In this document: in pieces, positions 8,353 through 63,560 of the stretch
Numbering within the stretch: the stretch's first letter is position 1
Layout: the number at the start of each line of letters is the position of its first letter
Source of the DNA: Candidatus Jettenia sp.
Lineage (GTDB): Bacteria; Planctomycetota; Brocadiia; Brocadiales; Brocadiaceae
Direction of reading: 5' to 3'
Length of the DNA stretch: 64,000 bases
Assembly (NCBI GenBank): GCA_021650895.1
Contig: CP091278.1
Span: 1,889,659-1,953,658 of the forward strand
Notes under the pieces: generated by a model
What the model was told of the DNA's origin: nothing
The model's database searches: none
Seen by the model: only the letters and a program-made list of their open reading frames with translations
Position numbers and translations under genes: made by a program

Positions 8353-8730
8353 TGAAGTAGACAAGGTGGTCGTCGGTTCTCATACTTGTTAAAAGAGAAC
8401 GGGAGGAAAGTCCGAGCTCCATAGGACACAGTGCTCCGTAACCCGGAGTCTTGGTAACAAGAAGGAAAGTGCAACAGAAAATATACCGTCCACGTACGGG
8501 GTGGATAAGGGTGAAATGGTGGGGTCGGTCGTTTACGACTTAATGTAAGAGCCCACCGCTTCAATGGCGACATTGGAGGCATGGCAAACCCCACTGGGAG
8601 AAAGGCTAAATAGGGAGGGATGAAGTGGTCCGCTTCGTTATTACCTCTGGGTAAGCCGTTAGAACCTGCTGGCAACAGCAGGTCTAGATAAATGATCACC
8701 CACGACAAAACTCGGCTTATTGTCTACTTA
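8353..8730 (+). ncRNA. rnpB: RNase P RNA (class A)
   Basis: This is the catalytic RNA that trims tRNA 5' leaders. The P1 helix is formed by AAGTAGACA near the start and TGTCTACTT at the end. The conserved P4-forming segment GAGGAAAGTCCG and the internal universal segments are present, as are GGGTAAGCC, AGATAAATGATCACCC and the closing CGGCTTAT. Length (~378 nt) is normal for bacterial class A. It ends just before a strong intrinsic terminator. Boundaries are taken from the P1 pairing and may shift by a few bases. Confidence 0.95.
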
Positions 8731-8734
8731 AAGC

Positions 8735-27894: not shown

Positions 27895-28379
27895 TTTAAA
27901 AATCTAAATAAGACACATCTTCACAACAGATACTTTTAGAAATGCTATGAGGATTAGCCGTTTTGTAACCTAACTTCTATAAATAAGTTATGTTAAAGTA
28001 TATGGTTAAATTTTTAGAGCTTTTCATAAGTAAGCCCTGTTCTCTTCTCTTTTTCCTTTCCATTATTTTAATTCCTTGTATCTCATCTTTATTATAATTG
28101 TTTTGGTTTTAATCAACCATTTAGAGATTCAGCAAATATTGTGCAACACAATAACGATTAACTGTAAATAAGTATTATGTTGTTTAACCATAATTGCATA
28201 TAACATTATTTTTTAAAATATAATCTTTAGGTATAAAATTTGTTAGGTATATCTATAAAACTTATATTTCTTAAAATAATTATTACCATTGTTCAACATA
28301 CTATAGATTTTAGCCCAATCAACTCAGGTATTAGTTAATGGTTTTTGCCTCATATAACTACAGAACTGGAGGCTTATAT
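27895..28379. other. AT-rich intergenic gap, no gene seen
   Basis: About 480 bp of strongly AT-rich sequence separates the second amt from the diheme protein. I see no coding frame, no hairpin with a T run and no consensus promoter. A GGAGG at 28369-28374 belongs to the next gene. Confidence 0.4.
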
Positions 28380-43832: not shown

Positions 43833-44774
43833 TTAAAAATTTATCTTCTTTTCAATGATGTATTCAGGCCTTTCCTTCACTTCGCTAAAGATACTGCCAA
43901 TATACTCGCCCATTACTCCTATCGTAAGGAGTTGAACCCCAAGAAAAAAGATGATGATAATGAGTGTTGATGCCCACCCTGGAACGGCATCAATTTGCCG
44001 GGAGAATTTGGATACAAACACATAAATAACTAATATAAACCCGATAAGAATACTGGAAAACCCTAATGTTGTAGCCAGTTTGAGGGGTTTTCTCGTAAAA
44101 TACAGGAGACCTGTCGTAGCGAATTTTATCATTTTAGAAACAGGATACTTCGTTTCACCGGCAAATCTGGGTTCTCTCGTATAGTAAATAGGCATTTGTT
44201 TAAATCCAATCCAGCTAATGAGTCCTCGGATATACTTGTTCTTTTCTTTTAACTGTTTAAATTCCCGGATGACTCTTTCATCAATTAACCGGAAATCACC
44301 AGTATCAAGGGGAATGGGTACTTCCGATAAAGAGTTGATCATCCGATAAAATAGTTTGGCAGTACATCGTTTAAAAAAAGATTCGCCCTGTCTCTCCCTT
44401 CTAACCCCATAAACTACGTTGCAATCTTCTTCTTCATATTTTTGAATCATTTGGTGGAAAAGTTCCGGGGGGTCCTGCAAGTCTGCATCGATAATTATTG
44501 CAACATCTCCCGTACAGTAATTTATTCCACAGGAAACGGCCGGCTGATGTCCAAAATTTCGGGAAAAACTGATTACTTTAACATGAGTATCCCGTTGAGA
44601 TATTTCTTCTAACAGCAGTAATGTCCTGTCCCTGCTTCCATCATTAATAAAAATGATCTCGTGCCTTGTGTACCCGTTGTTCGTTAGTGATCTTTTAACC
44701 CTTTTATACGTTTCTTCGATCACTGCCTCTTCATTATAGCAGGGGATAATGATAGAAATATTCAGGATAGGCAT
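43833..44774 (-). CDS. GT2 family polyprenyl-phosphate glycosyltransferase
   Basis: An N-terminal GT-A domain has IIIPCYNEE, FINDGSRD and the DXD-like DADLQDPPE. Two C-terminal membrane spans (~235-255, ~268-290) follow, as in GtrB/dolichol-phosphate mannose synthase-like enzymes. It should make a polyprenyl-phosphate sugar at the inner membrane face. It overlaps the GtrA gene upstream by 13 nt and precedes the GT39-like gene by 8 bp. Confidence 0.93.
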   Translation of the reverse strand: MPILNISIIIPCYNEEAVIEETYKRVKRSLTNNGYTRHEIIFINDGSRDRTLLLLEEISQRDTHVKVISFSRNFGHQPAVSCGINYCTGDVAIIIDADLQDPPELFHQMIQKYEEEDCNVVYGVRRERQGESFFKRCTAKLFYRMINSLSEVPIPLDTGDFRLIDERVIREFKQLKEKNKYIRGLISWIGFKQMPIYYTREPRFAGETKYPVSKMIKFATTGLLYFTRKPLKLATTLGFSSILIGFILVIYVFVSKFSRQIDAVPGWASTLIIIIFFLGVQLLTIGVMGEYIGSIFSEVKERPEYIIEKKINF

Positions 44775-49462: not shown

Positions 49463-50104
49463 TTATCTGCTACTATATGTCTTATCAGATGAATTACATA
49501 ATTTTTCCACTACGCATATCTTACAAACTGGCTTCCGGGCAATACAGGTACGCCGACCATGAGTTCCCAGAATGTGACATGATCTTGTCCATTTTTCCTG
49601 AGGTATAATTTTACATAATTCCATTTCAACCTTATCAGGATTATGAGACTGGGCTAATTCCAGGCGATGGGCAATACGAAAGACATGAGTGTCCACAATA
49701 ATGGCTTGTTTTCCAAAAACATTACCTAAGAGTACATTAGCTGTCTTCCTGCCAACGCCAGCCAAGGTTAAAAGCTCTTCCATAGTATCAGGAACTTGCC
49801 CATTAAACCGCTCCACTAACTCCTTGCAACAGGCAATAATATTCTTTACCTTATTTCTATGAAAGTTTATAGAACGGATTTCTTCCTCAAATGCCTCATG
49901 GCTCACATTGGCATAATCCTGAACTGTTTTATATTTCTTAAATAGTGTTTCCGTTACCATATTAACCCGATCATCTGTACACTGTGCAGACAGGATAGTA
50001 GCAACGAGTAATTCTAAAGGATTCTTGTAATTGAGATAAATCCTTGCGTCAGGATATGCCTTCTCAAGGAGAGATAGTATCTTTTTTACACGTTCTTCTG
50101 ACAT
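49463..50104 (-). CDS. nth: Endonuclease III (Nth)
   Basis: Nth is a base-excision repair glycosylase/AP lyase for oxidised pyrimidines. The helix-hairpin-helix LAGVGRKTANVLL holds the catalytic Lys; VDTHVFR holds the catalytic Asp. The C-terminal [4Fe-4S] loop has CHILGTHGRRTC, CKIC and the final Cys. Length (213) is standard. Confidence 0.96.
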   Translation of the reverse strand: MSEERVKKILSLLEKAYPDARIYLNYKNPLELLVATILSAQCTDDRVNMVTETLFKKYKTVQDYANVSHEAFEEEIRSINFHRNKVKNIIACCKELVERFNGQVPDTMEELLTLAGVGRKTANVLLGNVFGKQAIIVDTHVFRIAHRLELAQSHNPDKVEMELCKIIPQEKWTRSCHILGTHGRRTCIARKPVCKICVVEKLCNSSDKTYSSR

Positions 50105-50913
50105 AATACCCTTTTCAATAAAACTCGTTCATATAAGGAAAAAAGTGTCTCTGCCTTTTTGATTCGTGCTTCAATACCAATCACCGTTACCTCGCCACCA
50201 GCAAAAACAAGCACAGTAAAATCTTGCAATTCTACCGTAGAACAATCGATTAGCTTTTTGACTGCCCGCTAGAGCGATGCGTGTTATACGTTACTAAATG
50301 CTGCATGGTATTCGATCTTACCGGATGCACCATGCAGAAAACCGGGTTGAAGCTCGACAACCATAAACACATCCTCTTTTGAAAAGGATAATAATACAAA
50401 AACGAAGAAGAATGCAAGCTTTTTTCGCTTTTTTCTGGAGAAAGAACGAGGTAAATCTTTACAGATTATCTGAGAATTGAAATTCAAAGGGTTTTCGCGA
50501 TTATCGAGAGATGGTGATTGATTTTTAAAGAGGTTACAAGAACCTTCCCAGGGAAAACCTTTGGAAAGGAAAGAGAAAGGTCTACCGGGGAGTGATGCTT
50601 TTAAAATGCTTGCTATCAGGAGACGGGATCATATGAGATAAGCGGTTTTTGAGGTAATAGGAATACACCCTATCCCGGTATATCTTGAATAGGCATTATT
50701 TGGCTATACATGGTAGCATCCCCCGTATTTTTCCATAACCAGGGCAAACACGAGGTTCTCCTCTAACTCGGTGCCGTATCCTGACTGGATCAGATATTAT
50801 GTATAATTCCTTTCATGTCAATACCGGGTTTTTGAATTTTGCATTCTTGGACAATCTGGAAAGAACCTGACAGGCCTGAAGCAATTCTGTCAGACTTGGG
50901 ATACTCATCGAAT
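50105..50913. other. Intergenic region with decayed open frame, no intact gene
   Basis: A 61-codon open frame on the minus strand (50086-50268) reads sensibly (for example QDFTVLVFAGGEVTVIGIEARIK) and runs into the nth start, but lacks a start codon and has a stop upstream. It may be a remnant of a lost gene. The remaining ~640 bp shows nothing I can name. Confidence 0.35.
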
Positions 50914-52173
50914 TTAACGGTCAATTACCCGATCAAAGTACCATTTTTTTGTCAGCATGTTATAGGAGATCTGGCAAGTAAGATTATTACTGATAACTAC
51001 ACAGTATCGTTTCTTTGATACACCTTGAATGGTTTGATCTACCCATTCATTGACAACTTCTCTTATACGAAAAATTCTTCCACGTAATTTGAAGCTATAC
51101 GGAACTGCATAATTAATCGTCAGGTCGTTAACAGGTACCCATATCGAAGATTTCACCAAATGAATCAGGGTAAATACAGATGAAAAACACCAGAGTGCAA
51201 TACAAGCAATGGAAAAACATATCGAGATTATAATAAGATATTGTCCTCCAAATAAGTTAGATAATTGAATGGTACTATAGGCATATAACCCCAGAGCAAA
51301 AGCAACCTCCCAATATCCTACAGTAAACACAAGACCATCATCACAGAAAGCTTGTTTTCTTATAGCCAAGATAACCAGAAACGGTAACCACCATAAACCT
51401 ACAGACCAAAAAAACAGGGAAAATCCCTTTAAAAAAGGAAGGAAATCTGTGAATGGCCCATGCATGATATGTATGTGCTGATAGAGTGCGATACCAGTAA
51501 GCGCTGTTAATGCTGCTGCCCCCATATTCATCCAATAAGGTGACAGCGCTGCATCACTACTCAATTGATAAAATATCAGTCTTAACATAATGAATGCCGT
51601 GAAGATGAGGTACAGACATGCTCCTACAGACCACAAAACAAATGAAAATAATTGGATAAACGTTACGTGCTGCATTGCATGTTCTGCGACAGTTATGCCA
51701 AGGAAAGCTGTCGATTGCGTGCCAACTATGGTAAAAAACCAACCACCATGCAAAATATCCTCAATCTTCCTATCTTCAGATTTTCGGTGGAGGAATAAAA
51801 TGCTAAATGAGGAGAAAGAGGCAGCTAGCCAAAGACTAATAGCTATATACCAAAGTATATGAGCTGCTGTAGAGAAATGAAATACTTTGGATAAACAAAT
51901 GCCAATAAGATTAATTGCACTAACAATGGTAAAGAAATAAAAACTTTTCTCTGGATTGAGCAATTCATTTAAGGAATTCTCATAGAATAGCGCAATCTGT
52001 GTTGCCTTAAAAATAATTATAGAGAAGAATATGACTAGACTTGTTACAAAAAAGTATGGGACAATGGTCTCGAATCCATGTAATGACGAGATAGACACAA
52101 CCATTATGGTGGCCATGACAGCAGTAAACCATCGGGTATCCATCGAATAGGTTGCGACCTTTAATATATTCAT
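50914..52173 (-). CDS. TDT (TehA/Mae1)-family transporter with C-terminal soluble domain
   Basis: Ten predicted spans with family segments GGWFFTIVGTQSTAFLG, YWMNMGAAALTALTG and WEVAFALGLYAYST identify the tellurite-resistance/dicarboxylate (TDT) family, which includes chloride/nitrate-type SLAC channels. The last ~65 residues (from about 350) form a soluble beta-rich tail with GRIFRIREVVNEW, which resembles the DUF6504 domain. It follows narK on the same strand, so anion transport (nitrite or similar) is plausible but inferred. Confidence 0.78.
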   Translation of the reverse strand: MNILKVATYSMDTRWFTAVMATIMVVSISSLHGFETIVPYFFVTSLVIFFSIIIFKATQIALFYENSLNELLNPEKSFYFFTIVSAINLIGICLSKVFHFSTAAHILWYIAISLWLAASFSSFSILFLHRKSEDRKIEDILHGGWFFTIVGTQSTAFLGITVAEHAMQHVTFIQLFSFVLWSVGACLYLIFTAFIMLRLIFYQLSSDAALSPYWMNMGAAALTALTGIALYQHIHIMHGPFTDFLPFLKGFSLFFWSVGLWWLPFLVILAIRKQAFCDDGLVFTVGYWEVAFALGLYAYSTIQLSNLFGGQYLIIISICFSIACIALWCFSSVFTLIHLVKSSIWVPVNDLTINYAVPYSFKLRGRIFRIREVVNEWVDQTIQGVSKKRYCVVISNNLTCQISYNMLTKKWYFDRVIDR

Positions 52174-52295
52174 AAACAGAGTTAATAAAACACGATAAAA
52201 GAAAGATATTTACTATAAGGAAATAAGATACCGTTTCATTGAGGATTAGTGGATGAAGATGCTTATTATGGTGGTTCCTTTGAGAAGTTATTTTA

Positions 52296-52335
52296 TAGGA
52301 GGTGTTAAAATCTTACAGAAGTTTAACACCTCCTA
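52296..52335 (-). terminator. Hairpin after narK
   Basis: A perfect 14-bp stem (TAGGAGGTGTTAAA with TTTAACACCTCCTA) lies 13 bp after the narK stop. The T run is weak, so it may be a rho-independent terminator of low strength or an mRNA-protecting hairpin between narK and the TDT gene. Confidence 0.6.
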
Positions 52336-52347
52336 CTACTGTAATGT

Positions 52348-53547
52348 TTAAGTAGTGCCCAGGGCTTGTTTATTTGTGCTTGACAAAGTCTTTTCTTCCA
52401 TAAAGGATAGACACATGAGGCATACAAGAGATACGAAGATAAATCCCAGATAATAATTATCGGTATAATCCTTAATTGTACCCAGTATTATCGGAAGGAA
52501 AAAGCCTCCGAGACCTCCGGCTGCCCCTACCAGACCGCCTACAGAGCCGGTATCTTTTGGGAAATTTTCTGCTACCAGTTTATACACAACGCCATTCCCA
52601 ATACCGAGACAAGTTCCCATAATATAAAACACAACGAGTGAAGTCACTAACGATACATTCAAATTAAGGAATACCGTTATGACAAGCACGACTAAGGTAA
52701 GGGCTATTGTTAACTTTCTTCCATTAAACTTATCTCCCAAATATCCTCCCAGGATACGGGTAAATGATGAAAGAAATACAAATATTGATGTATAACTACC
52801 TGCTTTTACAGGACTAATGCCATAAAAGTCAATCAGATATGATGGCAACCATATTGAAAAACATACAAAAAACCCAAAAAACATAAAGTAAATTAAGCAG
52901 AAAACCCAAGCTAGACCAGATGACTTATATACCTTTAGTTTCTCTCTGAGGGTTGGAACCTTTACATTTGCCGGCCTTGGTGCATTAGAGGTAAAAAACC
53001 AATACACAAATGCCATTAAGAGTAAAGGGATTGCATAAATGATAAACGCTTTATGCCATCCTAAAGATTCAGCGATAAATGGCGCTCCAAAACCGGAAAT
53101 AGCAGTACCAGCATTTCCCACACCATAAACCCCTAATGCAAGCCCTTGCTTTTTCTTTGGGTACCATTCTGAGACATGGGGGATTCCAATAGCAAATGAT
53201 GAACCGATTAAGCCAAAAAAGAGCCCACCCACTAATAAAAAGCCATAACTATTTGCGAAACCAGTTAAAAGCAAAGATGCAAAACCAAACAGAAGCATGA
53301 TGGTAAAAACAAGCCTTCCACCAAATTTATCCGTCACAATACCCATAGGGATCTTTGCCAGCGAACCGAGCAATACGGGCATTGCAAGTAATAATCCTAC
53401 CGATGTGGAAGATAAATTAAACTCTTCCTTAAAGTAGATTGCCAAGGGAGCGAACAAGGTCCAACCAGCAAAACAGAGGGCAAATGCCACTGTTGCAAGT
53501 ATCATTACCTTGGTATTCCCGTTTGGCGTTTGTACAGATTCACTCAT
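52348..53547 (-). CDS. narK: NarK-family nitrate/nitrite MFS transporter
   Basis: Twelve spans are predicted over 399 residues. KIPMGIVTDKFGGR and the nitrate-signature glycine-rich stretches (GLALGVYGVGNAGTAISG; GGLVGAAGGLGGF) place it in the NarK/NasA group. The start has GGAGGTTCTT just upstream. It is the fourth gene of a unit with a CheY-like regulator, a heme-Cache sensor and a PAS protein, which suggests nitrate/nitrite or redox control. Confidence 0.93.
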   Translation of the reverse strand: MSESVQTPNGNTKVMILATVAFALCFAGWTLFAPLAIYFKEEFNLSSTSVGLLLAMPVLLGSLAKIPMGIVTDKFGGRLVFTIMLLFGFASLLLTGFANSYGFLLVGGLFFGLIGSSFAIGIPHVSEWYPKKKQGLALGVYGVGNAGTAISGFGAPFIAESLGWHKAFIIYAIPLLLMAFVYWFFTSNAPRPANVKVPTLREKLKVYKSSGLAWVFCLIYFMFFGFFVCFSIWLPSYLIDFYGISPVKAGSYTSIFVFLSSFTRILGGYLGDKFNGRKLTIALTLVVLVITVFLNLNVSLVTSLVVFYIMGTCLGIGNGVVYKLVAENFPKDTGSVGGLVGAAGGLGGFFLPIILGTIKDYTDNYYLGFIFVSLVCLMCLSFMEEKTLSSTNKQALGTT

Positions 53548-53609
53548 AAGAACCTCCTAGAAATAGTAAACTAAGCCTATAAATTTTAAAATTATTATTG
53601 ATTCCTTTA

Positions 53610-54005
53610 TTATAAAGAGAACGATGCCTGAATAGATTCAAATTCATTTTTCACCTTTAAAGGACATTTATAGAGGCCCTCTGTAACGAGAGTACTACTT
53701 TGTCTTATAAAGAATAGCTTACCACTCTTTGTTTTCATGAGGGTATAGAAGCCATTCACCTGACCGTCCCTGAACAGCATTGATAGTGTTTTCTCATGGT
53801 CAAAAGGATGCGCATATAATTCATTTATCTTTTTCCCAATTACATCATCAGGCGAGGCAAACCCAAAAAGTCGTGCACCCGCACTATTAATATGTATGAT
53901 GACCCCATCATAGGAAGGCTCGTACTCATACCATCCTTTTACATCCTGCACATCGGGAGATGTTTTTGATTCATCCTTTGCTGATGATATATTTTTGTTG
54001 TTCAT
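53610..54005 (-). CDS. Stand-alone PAS domain protein
   Basis: A single PAS domain (~residues 20-120, with INSAGARLFGF and DDVIGKKINELYAHP) makes up nearly the entire 131-residue protein. There is no output domain. It could bind a cofactor or mediate protein contacts. It lies between the Cache sensor gene (36 bp) and narK (62 bp) on the same strand, so it is likely part of the same pathway. Confidence 0.8.
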   Translation of the reverse strand: MNNKNISSAKDESKTSPDVQDVKGWYEYEPSYDGVIIHINSAGARLFGFASPDDVIGKKINELYAHPFDHEKTLSMLFRDGQVNGFYTLMKTKSGKLFFIRQSSTLVTEGLYKCPLKVKNEFESIQASFSL

Positions 54006-54041
54006 AGATACCTCCTCTTATAATCCTTTTTAATGCTTTCA

Positions 54042-55448
54042 TTACCAGGTTACTGCCGTTTTTTCTGATGATTGCTTTGCATTGATTTTTACTGTCTCTT
54101 CACCTTCATCTTCTGTATAATTATGCATAGTATTCTCAGATTTTAAGACAGGAATTTGCTCCTTGAATTTAGAAATATTACTCTTGATAAAATCTTCATC
54201 CCTTTTTGTCACAATAGAGCCAAATACATCTAAAGGGTTATAAACTCCGTATTTTTGTTCCCGAAGATACCCACGCTCTTTTCTTACTTCATAACCATCC
54301 AGAATAGCTATAATAAATCCAACCAGGAAGACAGTCGTTACACCCAGTAAGGCTTTATATGGTAAAGATAGGCCTTTTAACATATACCCCGCATTTAACT
54401 TCCTGTACATCAAGGTAGCCATAACGAATGCTGGAACGATTATTACCATCATAAGGGACTTTACCATTGAATTAATATTGTTTATGGTACCGAGCGCCTC
54501 ATCTGCATCAATCTCCACGATTAATCCCATATTTAAGTCCTTAACCCAGCTCCAAGCACCCACAACCTTGAATCCATCATAATCCATATATCCTTCCAAA
54601 TCGTATCCACTTGTTTTTTGCGTAATACACTTCTTTACCCCTTTTGTTATAAGATTGGTATCTGGGTCAACAACCTTATGGCATGTCTTACAGGTATCAC
54701 TGCTATTTTCTTTTATATGATCTGAAAATCTCGATTGCGTAATCATCGTACCATCTTTATTTACCAAATAAGCTTCCCCAGTTTTCCCTAGCACGTCATT
54801 TCGTATACCATGATTCAAAGCAGATGCATCCATCCATACCAAGACTGCGCCAATTACATCATAATTCTGCCCCTTGATTGGATAAGACATAAACAGGGAA
54901 GGCAACTCTTTATTTGCTTCATCCTGTATATCATTTATAGGAAAATGGATTACATCAGAAATATACGTTTTACCGTCATACAGAGTTTCCTGAATATTAC
55001 GGAATGATTTTTCTTTTATAATATTCATGCCCAGCATGGATTTTTCATTTTCAGTTGTAGCCTGAATTACCCCTGCTGCATCACAAATAAATATTCCTTT
55101 ATAATTGTAATCTGCCTTTGTGCACTCTAATTGCGTTTTTAACCTTAAATATTCATGTTCATCTTTTCCCTTTACGAGACTCACAAAATCCTCGCTACCA
55201 TGGATAAACAATGCACTCTGAATGGTGTCTGAAATAGCCCTGGCATGTGACTTTCTTTCTTCCCACATGTGTGTAAGGAGATCTTTTTGTTCTTTTACGA
55301 TACCTTCCAGATTCCTTTTAACACTTTGTTTTAATTCGGCACTTGCTTTTGGAAATGCAAGCATCCTAAACAAAACAAGGGGAAACAATCCAAAAAATAT
55401 GAAAGCAACAATAACAATAACAATGCGTTCTTTAAATATTCGTATCAT
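54042..55448 (-). CDS. Cache-domain membrane sensor with heme-c motif, no kinase
   Basis: An N-terminal span (~9-29) precedes a double-Cache-type periplasmic domain. A CxxCH heme-c motif (CKTCH, 253-257) is inserted in its membrane-distal end part. Two further spans lie at ~336-352 and ~375-392, then a ~75-residue soluble tail. The fold segment GYMDYDGFKVVGAWSW resembles the Cache of the kinase at 14728, which has no heme motif. There is no HAMP, kinase or methyl-accepting domain. It could sense a redox state or a gas such as NO via the heme and signal through separate partners. Confidence 0.82.
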   Translation of the reverse strand: MIRIFKERIVIVIVAFIFFGLFPLVLFRMLAFPKASAELKQSVKRNLEGIVKEQKDLLTHMWEERKSHARAISDTIQSALFIHGSEDFVSLVKGKDEHEYLRLKTQLECTKADYNYKGIFICDAAGVIQATTENEKSMLGMNIIKEKSFRNIQETLYDGKTYISDVIHFPINDIQDEANKELPSLFMSYPIKGQNYDVIGAVLVWMDASALNHGIRNDVLGKTGEAYLVNKDGTMITQSRFSDHIKENSSDTCKTCHKVVDPDTNLITKGVKKCITQKTSGYDLEGYMDYDGFKVVGAWSWVKDLNMGLIVEIDADEALGTINNINSMVKSLMMVIIVPAFVMATLMYRKLNAGYMLKGLSLPYKALLGVTTVFLVGFIIAILDGYEVRKERGYLREQKYGVYNPLDVFGSIVTKRDEDFIKSNISKFKEQIPVLKSENTMHNYTEDEGEETVKINAKQSSEKTAVTW

Positions 55449-55488
55449 ATTTCACCTCTTCTATGTTAAATTCTCCAAAGTATATAAA

Positions 55489-55869
55489 TTATTCTGTGCA
55501 TTTTTTTGTAAATTCAATAAGACATGCTTCTATATCACTGGTACTAAAAGGTTTTGTAATTACCTTATTTGCGCCTTTTTTAATAGCCTCTTTCACGACA
55601 TCCTCATCTGTATAGGCGGTAATAATAACAATATGAGAATTAACCCTTATCCCTTTCATTTGATCTAAGAATTCGATACCATCCATTCCCGGCATCTTCA
55701 CATCTAATAAAATAATTGAATAACAGCGCCTCTTAATCTCTTCCAATGCATCGAAACCATTATTTACTGCCTTTGTCTCAAACCCAAGATCAGCCAGGGA
55801 ATTCGCCAATACCTTTCTATATCCTTCTTCATCATCAACAATTAATATTCTTCTTGCTATCATTTCCAT
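55489..55869 (-). CDS. CheY-like single-domain response regulator
   Basis: The receiver domain has the acidic pair (VDDEE), the phosphoacceptor Asp in LLDVKMPGMDG, a Thr in IITAYTDE and the Lys in VITKPF. It has 126 residues and no output domain. It begins the minus-strand unit that continues with the heme-Cache sensor, PAS protein and narK. A kinase for it is not in the unit. Confidence 0.92.
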   Translation of the reverse strand: MEMIARRILIVDDEEGYRKVLANSLADLGFETKAVNNGFDALEEIKRRCYSIILLDVKMPGMDGIEFLDQMKGIRVNSHIVIITAYTDEDVVKEAIKKGANKVITKPFSTSDIEACLIEFTKKCTE

Positions 55870-56540
55870 AATTCTTCTATTTACTGAAATACCATTATTT
55901 GTGAAAATACTTACGCAACCGATATACCTATAAAAATATAAAACATTTAGATTGCGCTAAGCATTTTGCATCTTTATAGTTACGAGAAATAAAATTTTTT
56001 CTCAAATAATTTTTAACAATGTAACTGCAACCAAATTGTTTCATTTGAAAATCTCTGTAATAATCGTAAGTGTTTAATATAAAAAGATATAAGAGGAATA
56101 ATAAAAATTTAATAAGTGGAAACAATTTGGTTGCAGTTTAAGAATTAAGGAATAGCGTATACTTTAATGCCGCGCACACGAGAGATGAAAATAAAACATC
56201 TTCTTTTTTCTTGCTATTACTAACTAAATGAAATTCCAATTGTAAAAGCAGAAATGAGACGCTTTGATGAAGATTTCAGGCCATTAACAGATGAAACACT
56301 AAAATATTGGTAACTACTCAAAATACAGCATAAAATCTGAACAGGGAAGAACACAAGATATTACTATGATCCAACAATATTTTGTGTAAATAAAAATATT
56401 GCTTAAAAGAGACTCAATCGGATGACATATGTCCTAACAATATGCATGATCTATCGTGCATCTGAAATTGTTATGGCGTGAAGATATTTGGAGAGAATTC
56501 TGAGGAAAAGACAAAAACCAACACTTACCGTATTTTCCCC
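55870..56540. other. Intergenic region with decayed frame
   Basis: Apart from the inverted-repeat element at 56023-56138, a short plus-strand frame near 56247-56312 (reads EMRRFDEDFRPLTDETLKYW, then stop) looks like the end of a lost gene. I cannot name it. Confidence 0.35.
56023..56138. mobile_element. 116-bp element with perfect 20-bp inverted ends
   Basis: AACTGCAACCAAATTGTTTC at 56023-56042 is repeated as its exact reverse complement at 56119-56138. The ~76-bp interior is AT-rich and non-coding. A MITE is likely; a recombination site is an alternative. Confidence 0.7.
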
Positions 56541-56544
56541 AAGC

Positions 56545-56690
56545 TATAGTACTCAATAGATGAAACCGAACAGTATTTTAGACAGGGTGGCACGGACAAA
56601 CTTGTTTGTCCGTAATGGTGTAATGAAATCCTGGCTCATTTTGTCTGGTTTCATTATGTGCTGTTCGGTTTAATCTGTTGGATACTATAT
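56545..56690. mobile_element. MITE-like element, family T1 copy 2
   Basis: The termini (left TATAGTACTCAATAGATGAA then ACCGAACAG; right the reverse complement of TATAGTATCCAACAGATTAA then ACCGAACAG) match those of the element at 31396-31623. A central hairpin ACGGACAAAC/GTTTGTCCGT lies at 56592-56613. There is no coding frame. Confidence 0.7.
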
Positions 56691-59539: not shown

Positions 59540-60076
59540 CCAGAACTACCAGCGATAGGCCTCTGGAAAGAAAATCACTCCACTTGCCGAACATTTCAAG
59601 CAACGGAGCTCCATGCACAAGCCGATCATCTCGTCCTGCAAGGTGTGCAGATGCACTACTCTATCGATACTTCTGTGGTTTCTTAACCAATTTGTCCTTA
59701 CAGGATGCAGTTCAACAGAGCGCGCGGCTACGTACAGATGGGTTTTGCCTATGGGAAAAGAGGCAAAATGCCTTGCCATAGTTGTCCTCTCCAACCTTCC
59801 CGGAAGTTTACGCGACGCGTGTAGCACCGATGCGCTTGGCCAATTGCCTGACTAAGCGCCTTTTCAGAAGGCGAAACTGCAATCAGGTGTACATGGTTTG
59901 ACATCAGGCAATGGCCCATACTTCAATGTCCAGTGCGTACACCACTGAGACATCAAGTCTCTGTATGTCTTATAATCCTCGTCGCAGAAGAATGTCTGCA
60001 AACGACAGTTTCCTCGCTGAGTAACATGGTTTGGCACTTCTGGTATGACCACACGAGCAATTCTGGACATGCTCAC
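59540..60076 (-). pseudogene. REP-associated tyrosine transposase (RAYT) remnant
   Basis: The N-terminal frame begins MSMSRIARVVIPEVPNHVTQRGN, typical of Y1-transposase-like RAYT proteins. A frameshift moves the reading to CLMSNHVHLIAV (the HUH-like histidine motif) and SEKALSQAIGQAHRCYTRRVN. A second shift continues KTHLYVAARSVELHPVRTN. At least two frameshifts inactivate it. GC content is above that of the surrounding DNA, and a GTGTCCCC repeat lies just upstream. Confidence 0.8.
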
Positions 60077-60100
60077 ATCTTAACTCTCTAAATAACAAAG

Positions 60101-60134
60101 TCAATAATAATTAAGTATGATGTCCCCGGAATTG
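60101..60134. repeat. GTGTCCC-type repeat, copy 2
   Basis: Contains AATTAAGTATGATGTCCCCG; matches the copies at 57572 and 62888 with one or two differences. It lies between the RAYT remnant and the DUF3786 gene. Confidence 0.7.
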
Positions 60135-60144
60135 AAGTATACCA

Positions 60145-60726
60145 TTAGTCATACATCCCATAGTCATTCTTATAAGATACGGCCCGCGCAACAACTTCCG
60201 CCAATACTACTATGTCCTCAACACAGAATATCTTCGTTATGGTTTTATCAAAAAGTATATTTGCTTCAGGACCAAACTCTTCATCCGCATTCCAAAGTTC
60301 AATTACTATGGGGACACCTTCAAATGCCTCAACCACAATTGCTACGTCTGCGCGGTTTATTTTTTGGGCAGGCAAATTATGCAATACTGATAATATATCG
60401 AATATATTATTTCCGTACCTTTTTATTATCACATCAGTAGATCGTTTCTTAAACACTTCGGCAAAGCCGCTTGTAACAGAGAGCCCATGAAAACTAAGAT
60501 ATTCTCCACTGACTGCCGGTAAGCCTGCTATATTTTGAGAAAGATAATGAAGGATTAAGACAGTTAGATGATCCTCTATTGGTGTATTATGGGGTAATGA
60601 TAATACTTTTCGAGACTTAACATTAACTATGTACTCATTACCAAGAAATTTCACTTTTGTATTATCTGATATACCCGAACCTAAGAGGTTATCCCAAGAC
60701 CTTGTTATTGCTAACTCAAAACTCAT
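60145..60726 (-). CDS. DUF3786-like protein
   Basis: This 193-residue soluble protein fits the DUF3786 pattern: an acidic/amphipathic start, HLTVLILHYL, SGEYLSFHGL, a central helical region, and a C-terminal VVIEAFEGVPIVIELWNADEEFGPEANILFD-type segment (shown in short: PIVIELWNADEEFG, ANILFD). The function of the domain is not established. It lies alone between a transposase remnant and an integron-like cassette. Confidence 0.65.
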   Translation of the reverse strand: MSFELAITRSWDNLLGSGISDNTKVKFLGNEYIVNVKSRKVLSLPHNTPIEDHLTVLILHYLSQNIAGLPAVSGEYLSFHGLSVTSGFAEVFKKRSTDVIIKRYGNNIFDILSVLHNLPAQKINRADVAIVVEAFEGVPIVIELWNADEEFGPEANILFDKTITKIFCVEDIVVLAEVVARAVSYKNDYGMYD

Positions 60727-60812
60727 GTCGAAGTTATTTTGCCATTTCTATTTGATAACAAATAATATGAAAAAACTGCTCAATAACTGCTCATACAGCT
60801 TGTATTTCTTAG

Positions 60813-60889
60813 GCATAACGCCGGGCGTCAGCTGCTGCCGGAAGCGGGAGCGGACGCTGTAGGCAGTCAGCTGCACGCCTTGGTTAGCT
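60813..60889. other. attC-like (59-base element) recombination site
   Basis: The site is a 77-bp imperfect inverted repeat. It is bounded by GCATAAC (60813-60819) and GTTAGCT (60883-60889), with inner arms GGCGTCAGCTGCTGCC and GGCAGTCAGCTGCACGCC around a GC-rich loop. It begins 9 bp after the stop of the minus-strand HAD gene, where attC sites lie in gene cassettes. The GTTAGCT end matches the cassette's other boundary. Confidence 0.8.
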
Positions 60890-60898
60890 GGCTTACAC

Positions 60899-61897
60899 TC
60901 ACTGCTTCTCGAACGGGAAGATGGACTTCCAGTCTCGTTTCATGTCCAACACGGTCCAGCTGCGGGCCATTGCTTCATCAAGCGCCTTGTCGAGCCGGCC
61001 GATGCTGGACTGTCGGTCGTAGACCCATTCTCGTTCGGCGTCGGTGTGGTGGACGAGGAGCGCGAAACGCCTGCCGCTGCCAGCGGTCGTCCACTGGAGC
61101 ATTTGCAGGTCACCGTCGGAGTTACCGAAGGCGGCCAGAGGGCGTCGGCCGATGTGTTTCTGGATGCCGACGGGCTTGCCAGCCTTGTCGTCGATGAAGT
61201 CGATCTTTGGGAGCTTGACGAGCACCGGCTTGCTATCGCGTAGCTCAAACGTCAGTTTGCCACTGCTGCCGATCACTTGCTCGGGTGGAATGCCATAGAC
61301 TTGCTCGCTGAATACGCGCATGAACTCGATGCCGCCGCCAGAGACAATAAACGTCTTGAAGCCATGCGCGCGCAACCAGGTCAGCAATTCGAGCATCGGC
61401 TGATAGACCATTTCCGTGTAAGGTTGGCCAGTCTTCGGGTGCTTTGCCGTCGCGATCCAATCGCGGACGATTTTTTCGAACTCCTCCGTGGTGAGCCCTG
61501 CGTGCGTCGCCATGACGATCTGGAAGGTGGCCGGTTCGCCACCAGCGAGCGCACCTTTAAGGTTGCCCTTGAGCAGTGAGGCGAAGGGCTCTTTGTTCTG
61601 CCACTCGGGATGTTGCGACGCGAGAGCTTTGACGCGGTCGAGCGCGAACGCGAGTTGGAAATAGATCGGCTGCTCCGCCCACAGGGTGCCGTCGTTGTCG
61701 AACACAGCAATCCGCTCGGCGGGCGGGACAAACCTCGATCCGCCCTCTGTGGTTACATCCTTCACGAATTGAATGATAGCCTGCTTGGTTGCACCTTCGT
61801 TCCATAAGGAAAGCGGGTCGGTGGTCTGGGCGGTCGCCACGACGGAGACGGCCAAGGTAAAGCCGAAGACGAATGCTGTGAGTAGAGCACGAACCAT
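60899..61897 (-). CDS. Secreted HAD-superfamily phosphatase (cassette-borne)
   Basis: HAD motif I is FDNDGTLW, motif II TFIVSGGG, and motif III/IV AFGNSDGDLQM, so the catalytic set is complete and the protein is likely a phosphomonoesterase of the phosphoserine phosphatase-like class. I start at ATG 61897, which has AGGAG 7 nt upstream and opens a signal peptide ending VVATAQ; starts at 61918 or 61993 are less supported. Codon use is GC-rich, unlike neighbours, and the gene lies in an integron-type cassette, so recent transfer is likely. Confidence 0.85.
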   Translation of the reverse strand: MVRALLTAFVFGFTLAVSVVATAQTTDPLSLWNEGATKQAIIQFVKDVTTEGGSRFVPPAERIAVFDNDGTLWAEQPIYFQLAFALDRVKALASQHPEWQNKEPFASLLKGNLKGALAGGEPATFQIVMATHAGLTTEEFEKIVRDWIATAKHPKTGQPYTEMVYQPMLELLTWLRAHGFKTFIVSGGGIEFMRVFSEQVYGIPPEQVIGSSGKLTFELRDSKPVLVKLPKIDFIDDKAGKPVGIQKHIGRRPLAAFGNSDGDLQMLQWTTAGSGRRFALLVHHTDAEREWVYDRQSSIGRLDKALDEAMARSWTVLDMKRDWKSIFPFEKQ

Positions 61898-62145
61898 TGC
61901 ATGTCTCCTCTTGGTCATTGGTTTGAGCCAGCTAACATTAATTAGATTGATCCGCATAATATACGGAATACAGGTTTTTTGTCCATATAACACACCTTTG
62001 ATATGGCAAGTACTATATTGATAAGCACTTCAGATACCAACACTTATATCTCTTTATACTTTTTATCATGTCATCTTATACGGATCAATATAACAATCCT
62101 CTTGTTCCATTTCAAATTCAAAGTATATCGCAAAAAGGGGTCACA

Positions 62146-62860
62146 CCTTGATTAGTGATTTCAATTCTTCTAATCGCTTATGAATTTCATTGTCGTTCGA
62201 TACCTTTGATTTCATAAGAGTTACCTACCGACTTATGAAAGAATAACCAAGGCCAAACAAATCGCCAATTTCCTGATTATTATACCACCCCGTACTCCAT
62301 AAAAGAAAGATCAATACATCACGATTGTGTTTATCCGAATCGCATATCTTGGCGGATTGTAAGAAATCATTCGTATTGCATTACAAGACCTTTGCCGCTT
62401 TCTCTAAGATAGTTTTAGGATTGGTATCTCTTAAAACGTGCCGCTTCTGGGGAATTTCAACATCAGGTTTTTCGGACAAATATTTGGACTTGATATCGTC
62501 AACAAACTTCTGTGAACCAAAAAAAGGCCGTGCCGAAAATCTTCCCATATTCTTTTTTCTTCCCGGGAATATTTTTGAACCATTTCTCTCTATGCCTTGT
62601 TCTTGTCTTTTGTATCAAAACGAGAAAGAAGAGGCGCTGTAAGTAACCACTCTGGTGATTTTTTGCCATAGGCATATACGGGATAACGGCTCCATGGATA
62701 ATCAATTAACCACCTGACTATTCCGACCCGCAGCGGATTCCTGTGGATATAGCACGAAAGAAGCATCAGGTATTTATCGTTTTGGACAAGAAAGTTTTTG
62801 AACCGTCCCTGGAAAAGATGTCCATTTCGCTTATGTTTTATATTATACTAAATCAAGGGG
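62146..62860 (-). pseudogene. RAYT-type transposase remnant lacking the N-terminus
   Basis: Across two or three frames the region reads NGHLFQGRFKNFLVQNDKYL, LSCYIHRNPLRVGIV, DYPWSRYPVYAYGKKSPEWL, and finally EIGDLFGLGYSFISRSVTLMK near the C-terminus. This is the C-terminal two-thirds of a RAYT/Y1-type transposase with several disruptions. The HUH part is missing. A 74-bp piece (62566-62639) recurs at the window end. Confidence 0.78.
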
Positions 62861-62935: not shown

Positions 62936-62998
62936 TTGACAGTAACATATTATAAATACATACTAATGCATATATAAATGCATATTTCATTAGGAGAT
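62936..62998 (+). promoter_or_regulatory. vapBC promoter and candidate operator
   Basis: TTGACA (62936-62941) with CATACT 17 bp downstream gives a plausible promoter. It overlaps repeated ATGCATAT motifs (two copies 12-13 bp apart) ending just before AGGAG. VapB-type antitoxins usually bind such repeats to autoregulate. Confidence 0.55.
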
Positions 62999-63004
62999 AA
63001 ATTC

Positions 63005-63217
63005 ATGAGAACAACAATAAACATAGATGATGAATTGTTTGAAAAGGCAGCGAAGTTGACCGGCATTAAAGAAAAAACGTCACTGGTGAGCTTGGGTCTT
63101 GAAGCACTTATCGCCAGGGAAAGCGCTAGGAGACTTGCGAAATTGGCAGGTACTGAAAAGAAATTAGAAATGATACCCCGCAGAAGAACAACAGGCACAT
63201 ACGATGGTTCTTGTTGA
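63005..63217 (+). CDS. vapB: VapB-type antitoxin (RHH)
   Basis: I start at ATG 63005 with AGGAG 9 nt upstream, where the ribbon-helix-helix sequence MRTTINIDDELFEKAAKLTG begins. The 70-residue protein continues with a helix that should wrap VapC (ALIARESARRLAKLAG). It overlaps vapC by 14 nt. Confidence 0.9.
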   Translation: MRTTINIDDELFEKAAKLTGIKEKTSLVSLGLEALIARESARRLAKLAGTEKKLEMIPRRRTTGTYDGSC

Positions 63218-63560
63218 CACTTCAGTATGGGTAGCGCATTTGCGGAATGGAAATACCGGGCTTGAAACACTATTAAATGAAAGTCACGTTATCTGTCACC
63301 CATTCATCATTGGTGAGCTTGCTTGTGGTAATCTTAAAAACAGGGCTGAAATACTTTCTCTTCTACAGGCACTTCCTATGTCAACTCATTTGGAACATGA
63401 AGAAGTGATGAGATTTATAGAAGATCATACACTTATGGGGAAGGGGTTAGGGTATATTGACATTCACTTGATTGCTTCGGCTCTATTAACTGATGTCCCA
63501 CTGTGGACAATTGACAAAAAACTCAATGAGATTTCTTCAAAATTGGGGATAAAGTATTGA
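63204..63560 (+). CDS. vapC: VapC toxin (PIN-domain ribonuclease)
   Basis: All four PIN acidic residues are present: Asp5 (LVDTSVW), Glu38 (IIGELACG), Asp86 (GYIDIHL) and Asp104 (TIDKKL). The 118-residue length is normal, so the toxin looks active. It is coupled to vapB by overlap. Confidence 0.92.
   Translation: MVLVDTSVWVAHLRNGNTGLETLLNESHVICHPFIIGELACGNLKNRAEILSLLQALPMSTHLEHEEVMRFIEDHTLMGKGLGYIDIHLIASALLTDVPLWTIDKKLNEISSKLGIKY

Follow-up and report, generated by a model that had tools for sequence, protein, structure and literature searches.

The window, meaning here the whole 64-kb stretch of DNA that was analyzed, contains a gene for a predicted secreted HAD hydrolase that has the organization of an integron gene cassette. 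This cassette is flanked on one side by an attI-type site and on the other by another cassette, meets each of them at an exact G|TT junction, and has a structured attC site of its own. The features of this region, together with a remnant elsewhere in the window, are as follows.

62138..62262, no strand assigned: REP-like repeat adjoining the attI-type site at its upstream end, repeated in the family and in genome G002
62118..61936, minus strand: attI-type site (attI-A), a repeated 183-bp element whose last bases before the cassette junction are ...CAATCTAATTAATG
61935..60819, minus strand: HAD gene cassette in its linear form, 1,117 bp, extending from the TT that follows the 5' G through the G in the R' box of the attC
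61897..60899, minus strand: predicted secreted HAD hydrolase, 332 aa, with an intact ORF and a signal-peptide-like N-terminus
60889..60813, minus strand: attC site, 77 bp, beginning 9 bp past the HAD stop codon, with R'' AGCTAAC and R' GTTATGC
60138..60818, minus strand: second cassette (DUF3786), which keeps its 5' junction G|TTATGCC and has lost its 3' attC
60145..60726, minus strand: DUF3786 protein, 193 aa, Pfam PF12654 (E 4e-33)
59546..60137, minus strand: REP / Y1-transposase-like (RAYT) remnant, segments of which are repeated in the genus; the RAYT name was given by inspection
50378-50479, minus strand: second decayed integron platform, recognized by a leader match; a remnant of the leader (the intI promoter region) with the attI missing

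When the minus strand is read, the 5' junction appears as ...CAATCTAATTAATG|TTAGCTGGCTC..., and is followed by the HAD ORF, a 9-bp gap, and an attC ending ...GGCG|TTATGC. The elements described in the original prediction, including GTTAGCT (61936..61930, minus strand), the HAD ORF, the 77-bp attC, and the 9-bp gap, are all located where it had placed them. Its observation that the start of the cassette is complementary to the inner end of the attC also holds exactly, because the first 11 bases, GTTAGCTGGCT, are the perfect reverse complement of AGCCAGCTAAC at the attC start. Likewise, its description of the gene as GC-rich is borne out by a GC content of 59.3% for the cassette versus 37.4% for the window. 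The exact junctions on both sides of the cassette are shared with relatives that have other sequence there.

The HAD protein carries the motifs DNDGT, VSGGG, and GNSDGD, and an alignment of relatives reveals that the catalytic motifs are invariant or nearly so. The protein matches Pfam PF12710 (E 6e-13) and is related to the solved structure 4OVY (E 1e-128). It is probably a foreign, functional secreted enzyme of the phosphatase type, with both activity and expression being predicted. The wider idea that cassettes regularly carry genes for secreted HAD enzymes found no support, as no attC was found at approximately 70 homologous HAD loci elsewhere.

Pairing of R'' with R' and of L'' with L', interrupted by extrahelical bases, is required of an integron attC and is present in the HAD attC. 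Two extrahelical bases protrude from the R''-L'' arm, GGCGT[G]CAGCTG[A]CTGCC, and related attC sites are arranged likewise. An Rfam scan of the region gave no match, and therefore a dedicated covariance model (R1) was built from 13 attC sites at other loci of the family, with the HAD attC left out. Most of these sites were located by the rule that the first bases of a cassette recur inverted at its own attC. The alignment was confined to the attC arms, and the structure was set by hand. A string-based attC scanner had been dropped because shuffled sequences scored similarly; its place was taken by the covariance model together with the test of cassette junctions.

In the window, R1 finds the HAD attC as its sole match (46.0 bits, E 7.1e-9), and in the whole 3.82-Mb single-contig genome the same site ranks second of nine (E 4.3e-7), with all E-values being rough due to a short calibration. 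No match at E <= 0.1 was obtained in 448 kb of control loci surrounding HAD homologues, nearly all of which come from other bacteria. Covariation across 34 family attC sites found by R1 is 0.453 versus 0.156 for shuffled alignments, none of which scored as high, and controls slid out of register give values near 0.1. Two findings had been named in advance that would count against an integron-type cassette: a covariance model without an attC match, and relatives carrying the gene without either GTTAGCT-type boundary. R1 matches the HAD attC, and both boundaries are exact recombination junctions in relatives, which upholds the assignment.

The original prediction was right about the cassette and missed its surroundings. 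The cassette is not a lone one: it sits at an attI-type site, and a truncated DUF3786 cassette comes next. The attI-A element upstream is present in 23 of the 33 family genomes, and this genome has four full copies and one partial copy that are more than 100 kb apart. Over 32 aligned copies, identity is 93% in the 30 bp before G|TT and 40% after it, and past this point the copies mostly lead into differing sequences. At several copies, only a few bases separate attI-A from the C-terminal end of an integron integrase, IntI (...MIYTHVLNRGPAGVHSPLD), that is encoded on the strand leading into the cassettes (loci L112, L120, L122, L128, L129, L127, and L185). One such end, at 1,581,219-1,581,356, is located in this same genome and reads toward the attI and cassettes. 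Thirty family attI junctions had enough sequence to compare the cassette start with its attC, and in 16 of these the start is complementary to the cassette's own attC, versus 13 of 1,515 control GTT positions (0.9%). Judging from these sequence comparisons, the 183-bp element most plausibly represents the attI region, lying directly next to the first cassette. Because no full-length integrase was found beside any attI-A site, recombination there is deduced from the junctions only.

A complete integron platform has a functional intI at its array. The window has no match to IntI, including behind the REP-like repeat at 62138..62262, and a search of the 3.82-Mb genome recovered fragments only, with no intact integron integrase found. 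One of them is N-terminal, at 3,626,175 (90 bits), and the other is the C-terminal piece at 1,581,219; the best match spans 144 residues, and the remaining matches score at most 62 bits, in the range of generic tyrosine recombinases. Thus, the original prediction was correct that no integrase is visible, and its term "mobile cassette" is apt only for the second word: given that the genome search yielded N- and C-terminal pieces but no intact IntI, present mobility is doubtful and the HAD cassette is probably immobile in this genome today.

Relatives are better equipped. Full-length or near-full-length IntI proteins occur in ten of them and, with the class 1 IntI model, reach scores of approximately 300-370 bits. 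Another type of site, attI-B, follows a full-length intI in the same layout and has a similar size to attI-A (L169 and L171), and at L169 the full-length intI is succeeded by attI-B and then by a cassette with a matching attC. A third type, attI-C, is divergent from intI in L183, and at several places in the complete genome G024 it has no intI beside it. These integrase-less attI-C copies (L213, L214, and L215, all in G024) end in CTAATTMATG|TTAGC, as attI-A does. Within this one family there are several IntI lineages (L165-L184), in part directed toward attI and in part divergent from it, and several of these proteins have N-terminal extensions, with open frames of up to 519 aa.

Other explanations for the locus must be weighed against these data. 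The foreign GC content would by itself fit any horizontal transfer, and the thermodynamic fold of the attC alone is moderately unusual (z of -1.9 and -2.6), which is what might be expected if a palindrome happened to lie beside a horizontally acquired HAD gene with no integron involved. This explanation is refuted by the R1 match at E 7.1e-9, the two exact junctions, and the 11-nucleotide complementarity between cassette start and attC, leaving it a negligible probability. It is also very unlikely that the 183-bp element is a MITE- or promoter-like mobile repeat whose end coincides with cassette starts by chance. The element is multicopy, dispersed, and mostly without intI, as a mobile repeat might be, and many copies are preceded by a leader that is a repeat in its own right and recurs even at 50378-50479 of the window. 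However, the aligned copies stop at a single base, G|TT, which is the known integron crossover point. Furthermore, at 16 of the 30 junctions the cassette that follows has an attC matching its start, far above the control rate of 0.9%, and attI-B behind a full-length intI shares the layout and the approximate size. Inspection by eye of the upstream alignment revealed no evident mobile-element ends around attI-A.

The HAD gene could also be a stray cassette that landed at a chance secondary genomic site (attG-type) unrelated to any integron platform. There is no integrase nearby, cassettes insert into secondary genomic sites according to the work of Loot et al. 2024 as cited in PMC12444791, and the DUF3786 cassette of genome G013 follows DNA that matches no known attI. 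Yet the upstream flank of the HAD cassette is an attI-type repeat rather than non-att DNA, and this 183-bp element adjoins integrase ends elsewhere and terminates precisely at the junction, so that an attG-type insertion is very improbable indeed.

We therefore strongly favor the interpretation that a small chromosomal integron array lost its integrase and that the HAD gene is the first cassette in it. At the level of sequence, this reading is built on the cassette structure, both junctions, the attI repeat that lies beside intI ends, and the failure to find an intact IntI in the genome. An IntI tyrosine recombinase, present in an ancestor or acting in trans, would have inserted the folded single-stranded circular cassette by attI x attC recombination. 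The platform would have been of the "inverted" type, in which intI reads toward the attI and cassettes; this arrangement is seen in relatives and at 1581219-1581356 of the same genome, and the copy in the window has no intI. As a rule, cassette insertion occurs at attI, and the order attI, HAD, DUF3786 thus suggests that the HAD cassette arrived last, after DUF3786. Deletion of the integrase and leader would have come later, and REP/transposase elements might then have eroded both ends of the platform and left the HAD gene fixed. The window holds a single attC and not an attC array. Promoter-like sequences that might represent a cassette promoter (Pc), identified by consensus match only, are present at 62115..62087 and 61985..61956, and the usual leader is cut off at this copy.

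The second cassette records such erosion at the downstream end. Its start, G|TTATGCCTAAGAAATACAAGC, is found after the HAD attC here, after intI/attI-B in G020, and after unrelated DNA in G013, and a related DUF3786 cassette begins at another G|TT in G024 and G028. The DUF3786 cassette in G020 is complete and has its own attC. Similarity to it stops at approximately 60138 in the window, where the REP/transposase remnant cuts off the attC. A search of Pfam with a 70-aa frame of the putative RAYT remnant gave no match. At two other loci, L230 (G002:C2:89236..88620) and L232 (G001), DUF3786 is joined directly to the integron leader and the attI is missing, and the cassette gene has apparently become fixed behind the intI promoter.

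Decay is also evident at other platforms. Several attI-A copies keep the promoter-like leader and have no intI; because the same leader precedes intI in L163 and L115, these copies look like integrons from which intI has been deleted. Part of the window (49533-56546) is syntenic with G002:C2:60000-68967, a region from the same genus in which leader, attI-A, and cassette start occur together (G002:C2:63276..62980) at the place where the window keeps the leader only (50378-50479). A search for further attC sites in the genome had been proposed, and about six attC sites are scattered over the chromosome, including G000:C1:862190-862785, 1579975-1580511, 2110437-2110494, 27973-28053, and 44385-44451 in addition to the HAD site. 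The cassettes at these other sites include those for a RidA-like (Ribonuc_L-PSP) protein and a Cys-rich CPCC protein.

All 33 family genomes have R1 matches at E <= 0.001, with 1-20 in each, and in the complete genomes these are scattered. Elsewhere in the order, 18 of 26 genomes from other families have matches. Some of these are strong, whereas most members of family f2 have one match or none, so that some weak matches may be background. The best outside record for the window end is contig JABWAQ010000117 of Candidatus Brocadia sp. MAG_8 (99.98-99.99%). This 8.25-kb contig (genome G032, loci L130 / L038) is 99.99% identical to the window end over 6,982 bp. A recent transfer to this other genus was not accepted, since other contigs of G032 likewise match the genome analyzed here and the bin is listed with 6% contamination, and it is likelier that the contig was mis-binned.

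Overall, the HAD cassette is of an ordinary kind, and the platform that carries it lacks an integrase and belongs to a multicopy, decaying integron family. Cassettes of sedentary chromosomal integrons are alike in having one ORF, a short 5' region, an attC with R and L boxes and extrahelical bases, and G|TT junctions, but the platform here differs in lacking an integrase and in having one attC left in its array. CALIN elements, as now reported, comprise at least two attC sites without an integrase and are defined without reference to attI. They resemble this locus in that attC-bearing cassettes are present without intI, whereas here an attI-type site is present and the window contains one attC, short of the two that define a CALIN. 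Relatives in the family share with the inverted-type integrons of Treponema an intI that reads toward attI and the cassettes (PMC3607928), both for attI-A with intI ends and for attI-B with full intI. In contrast to the Treponema type, there are several attI copies per chromosome here, most of them without intI, and some family members have a divergent (classical) intI. An intI of Kuenenia stuttgartiensis has been placed in a clade with the integrons of Treponema and Blastopirellula marina (PMC3607928). Delta-attI cassettes of class 1/2 integrons also carry attI sequence away from its usual place, mostly as 14-18-nt attI cores downstream of the ORF (PMC12901181), whereas the sites described here are complete, approximately 183 bp long, and upstream of cassettes.

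Sites of the attI type are poorly described outside of class 1, and 22% of intI-bearing genomes have more than one intI (IntegronFinder 2.0, PMC9024848). In the open-licence papers searched, no description of dispersed integrase-less attI platforms was found, nor any paper that treats an integron integrase together with Brocadia. Inverted integrons and an anammox intI are already known, and the dispersed platforms are apparently undescribed in that literature. Comparison alone sufficed to delimit approximately 40 natural attI copies, which fall into at least three types and whose junctions are defined to the base, such that attI consensus, evolution, and decay become testable. The distribution of these copies suggests that cassettes may be spread over chromosomes via multiple attI platforms rather than in one array. 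It is conceivable, but on balance doubtful, that this amounts to a "distributed integron" in which many scattered attI platforms with one to a few cassettes each, mostly integrase-less, would be served in trans by one or a few IntI genes located elsewhere while decaying time and again into fixed genes, as in this window. The family, presumably the Brocadiaceae judging from the Brocadia record, consists of bacteria important for nitrogen removal (anammox), and the locus illustrates how cassettes can turn into ordinary resident genes after the integrase is lost.

No defence family was identified by PADLOC. Genes for a VapB antitoxin and a PIN-domain (VapC-like) toxin are located just upstream of the platform (62978-63560, plus strand), and a bacterial RNase P class A RNA is encoded at 8354-8734 (plus strand).
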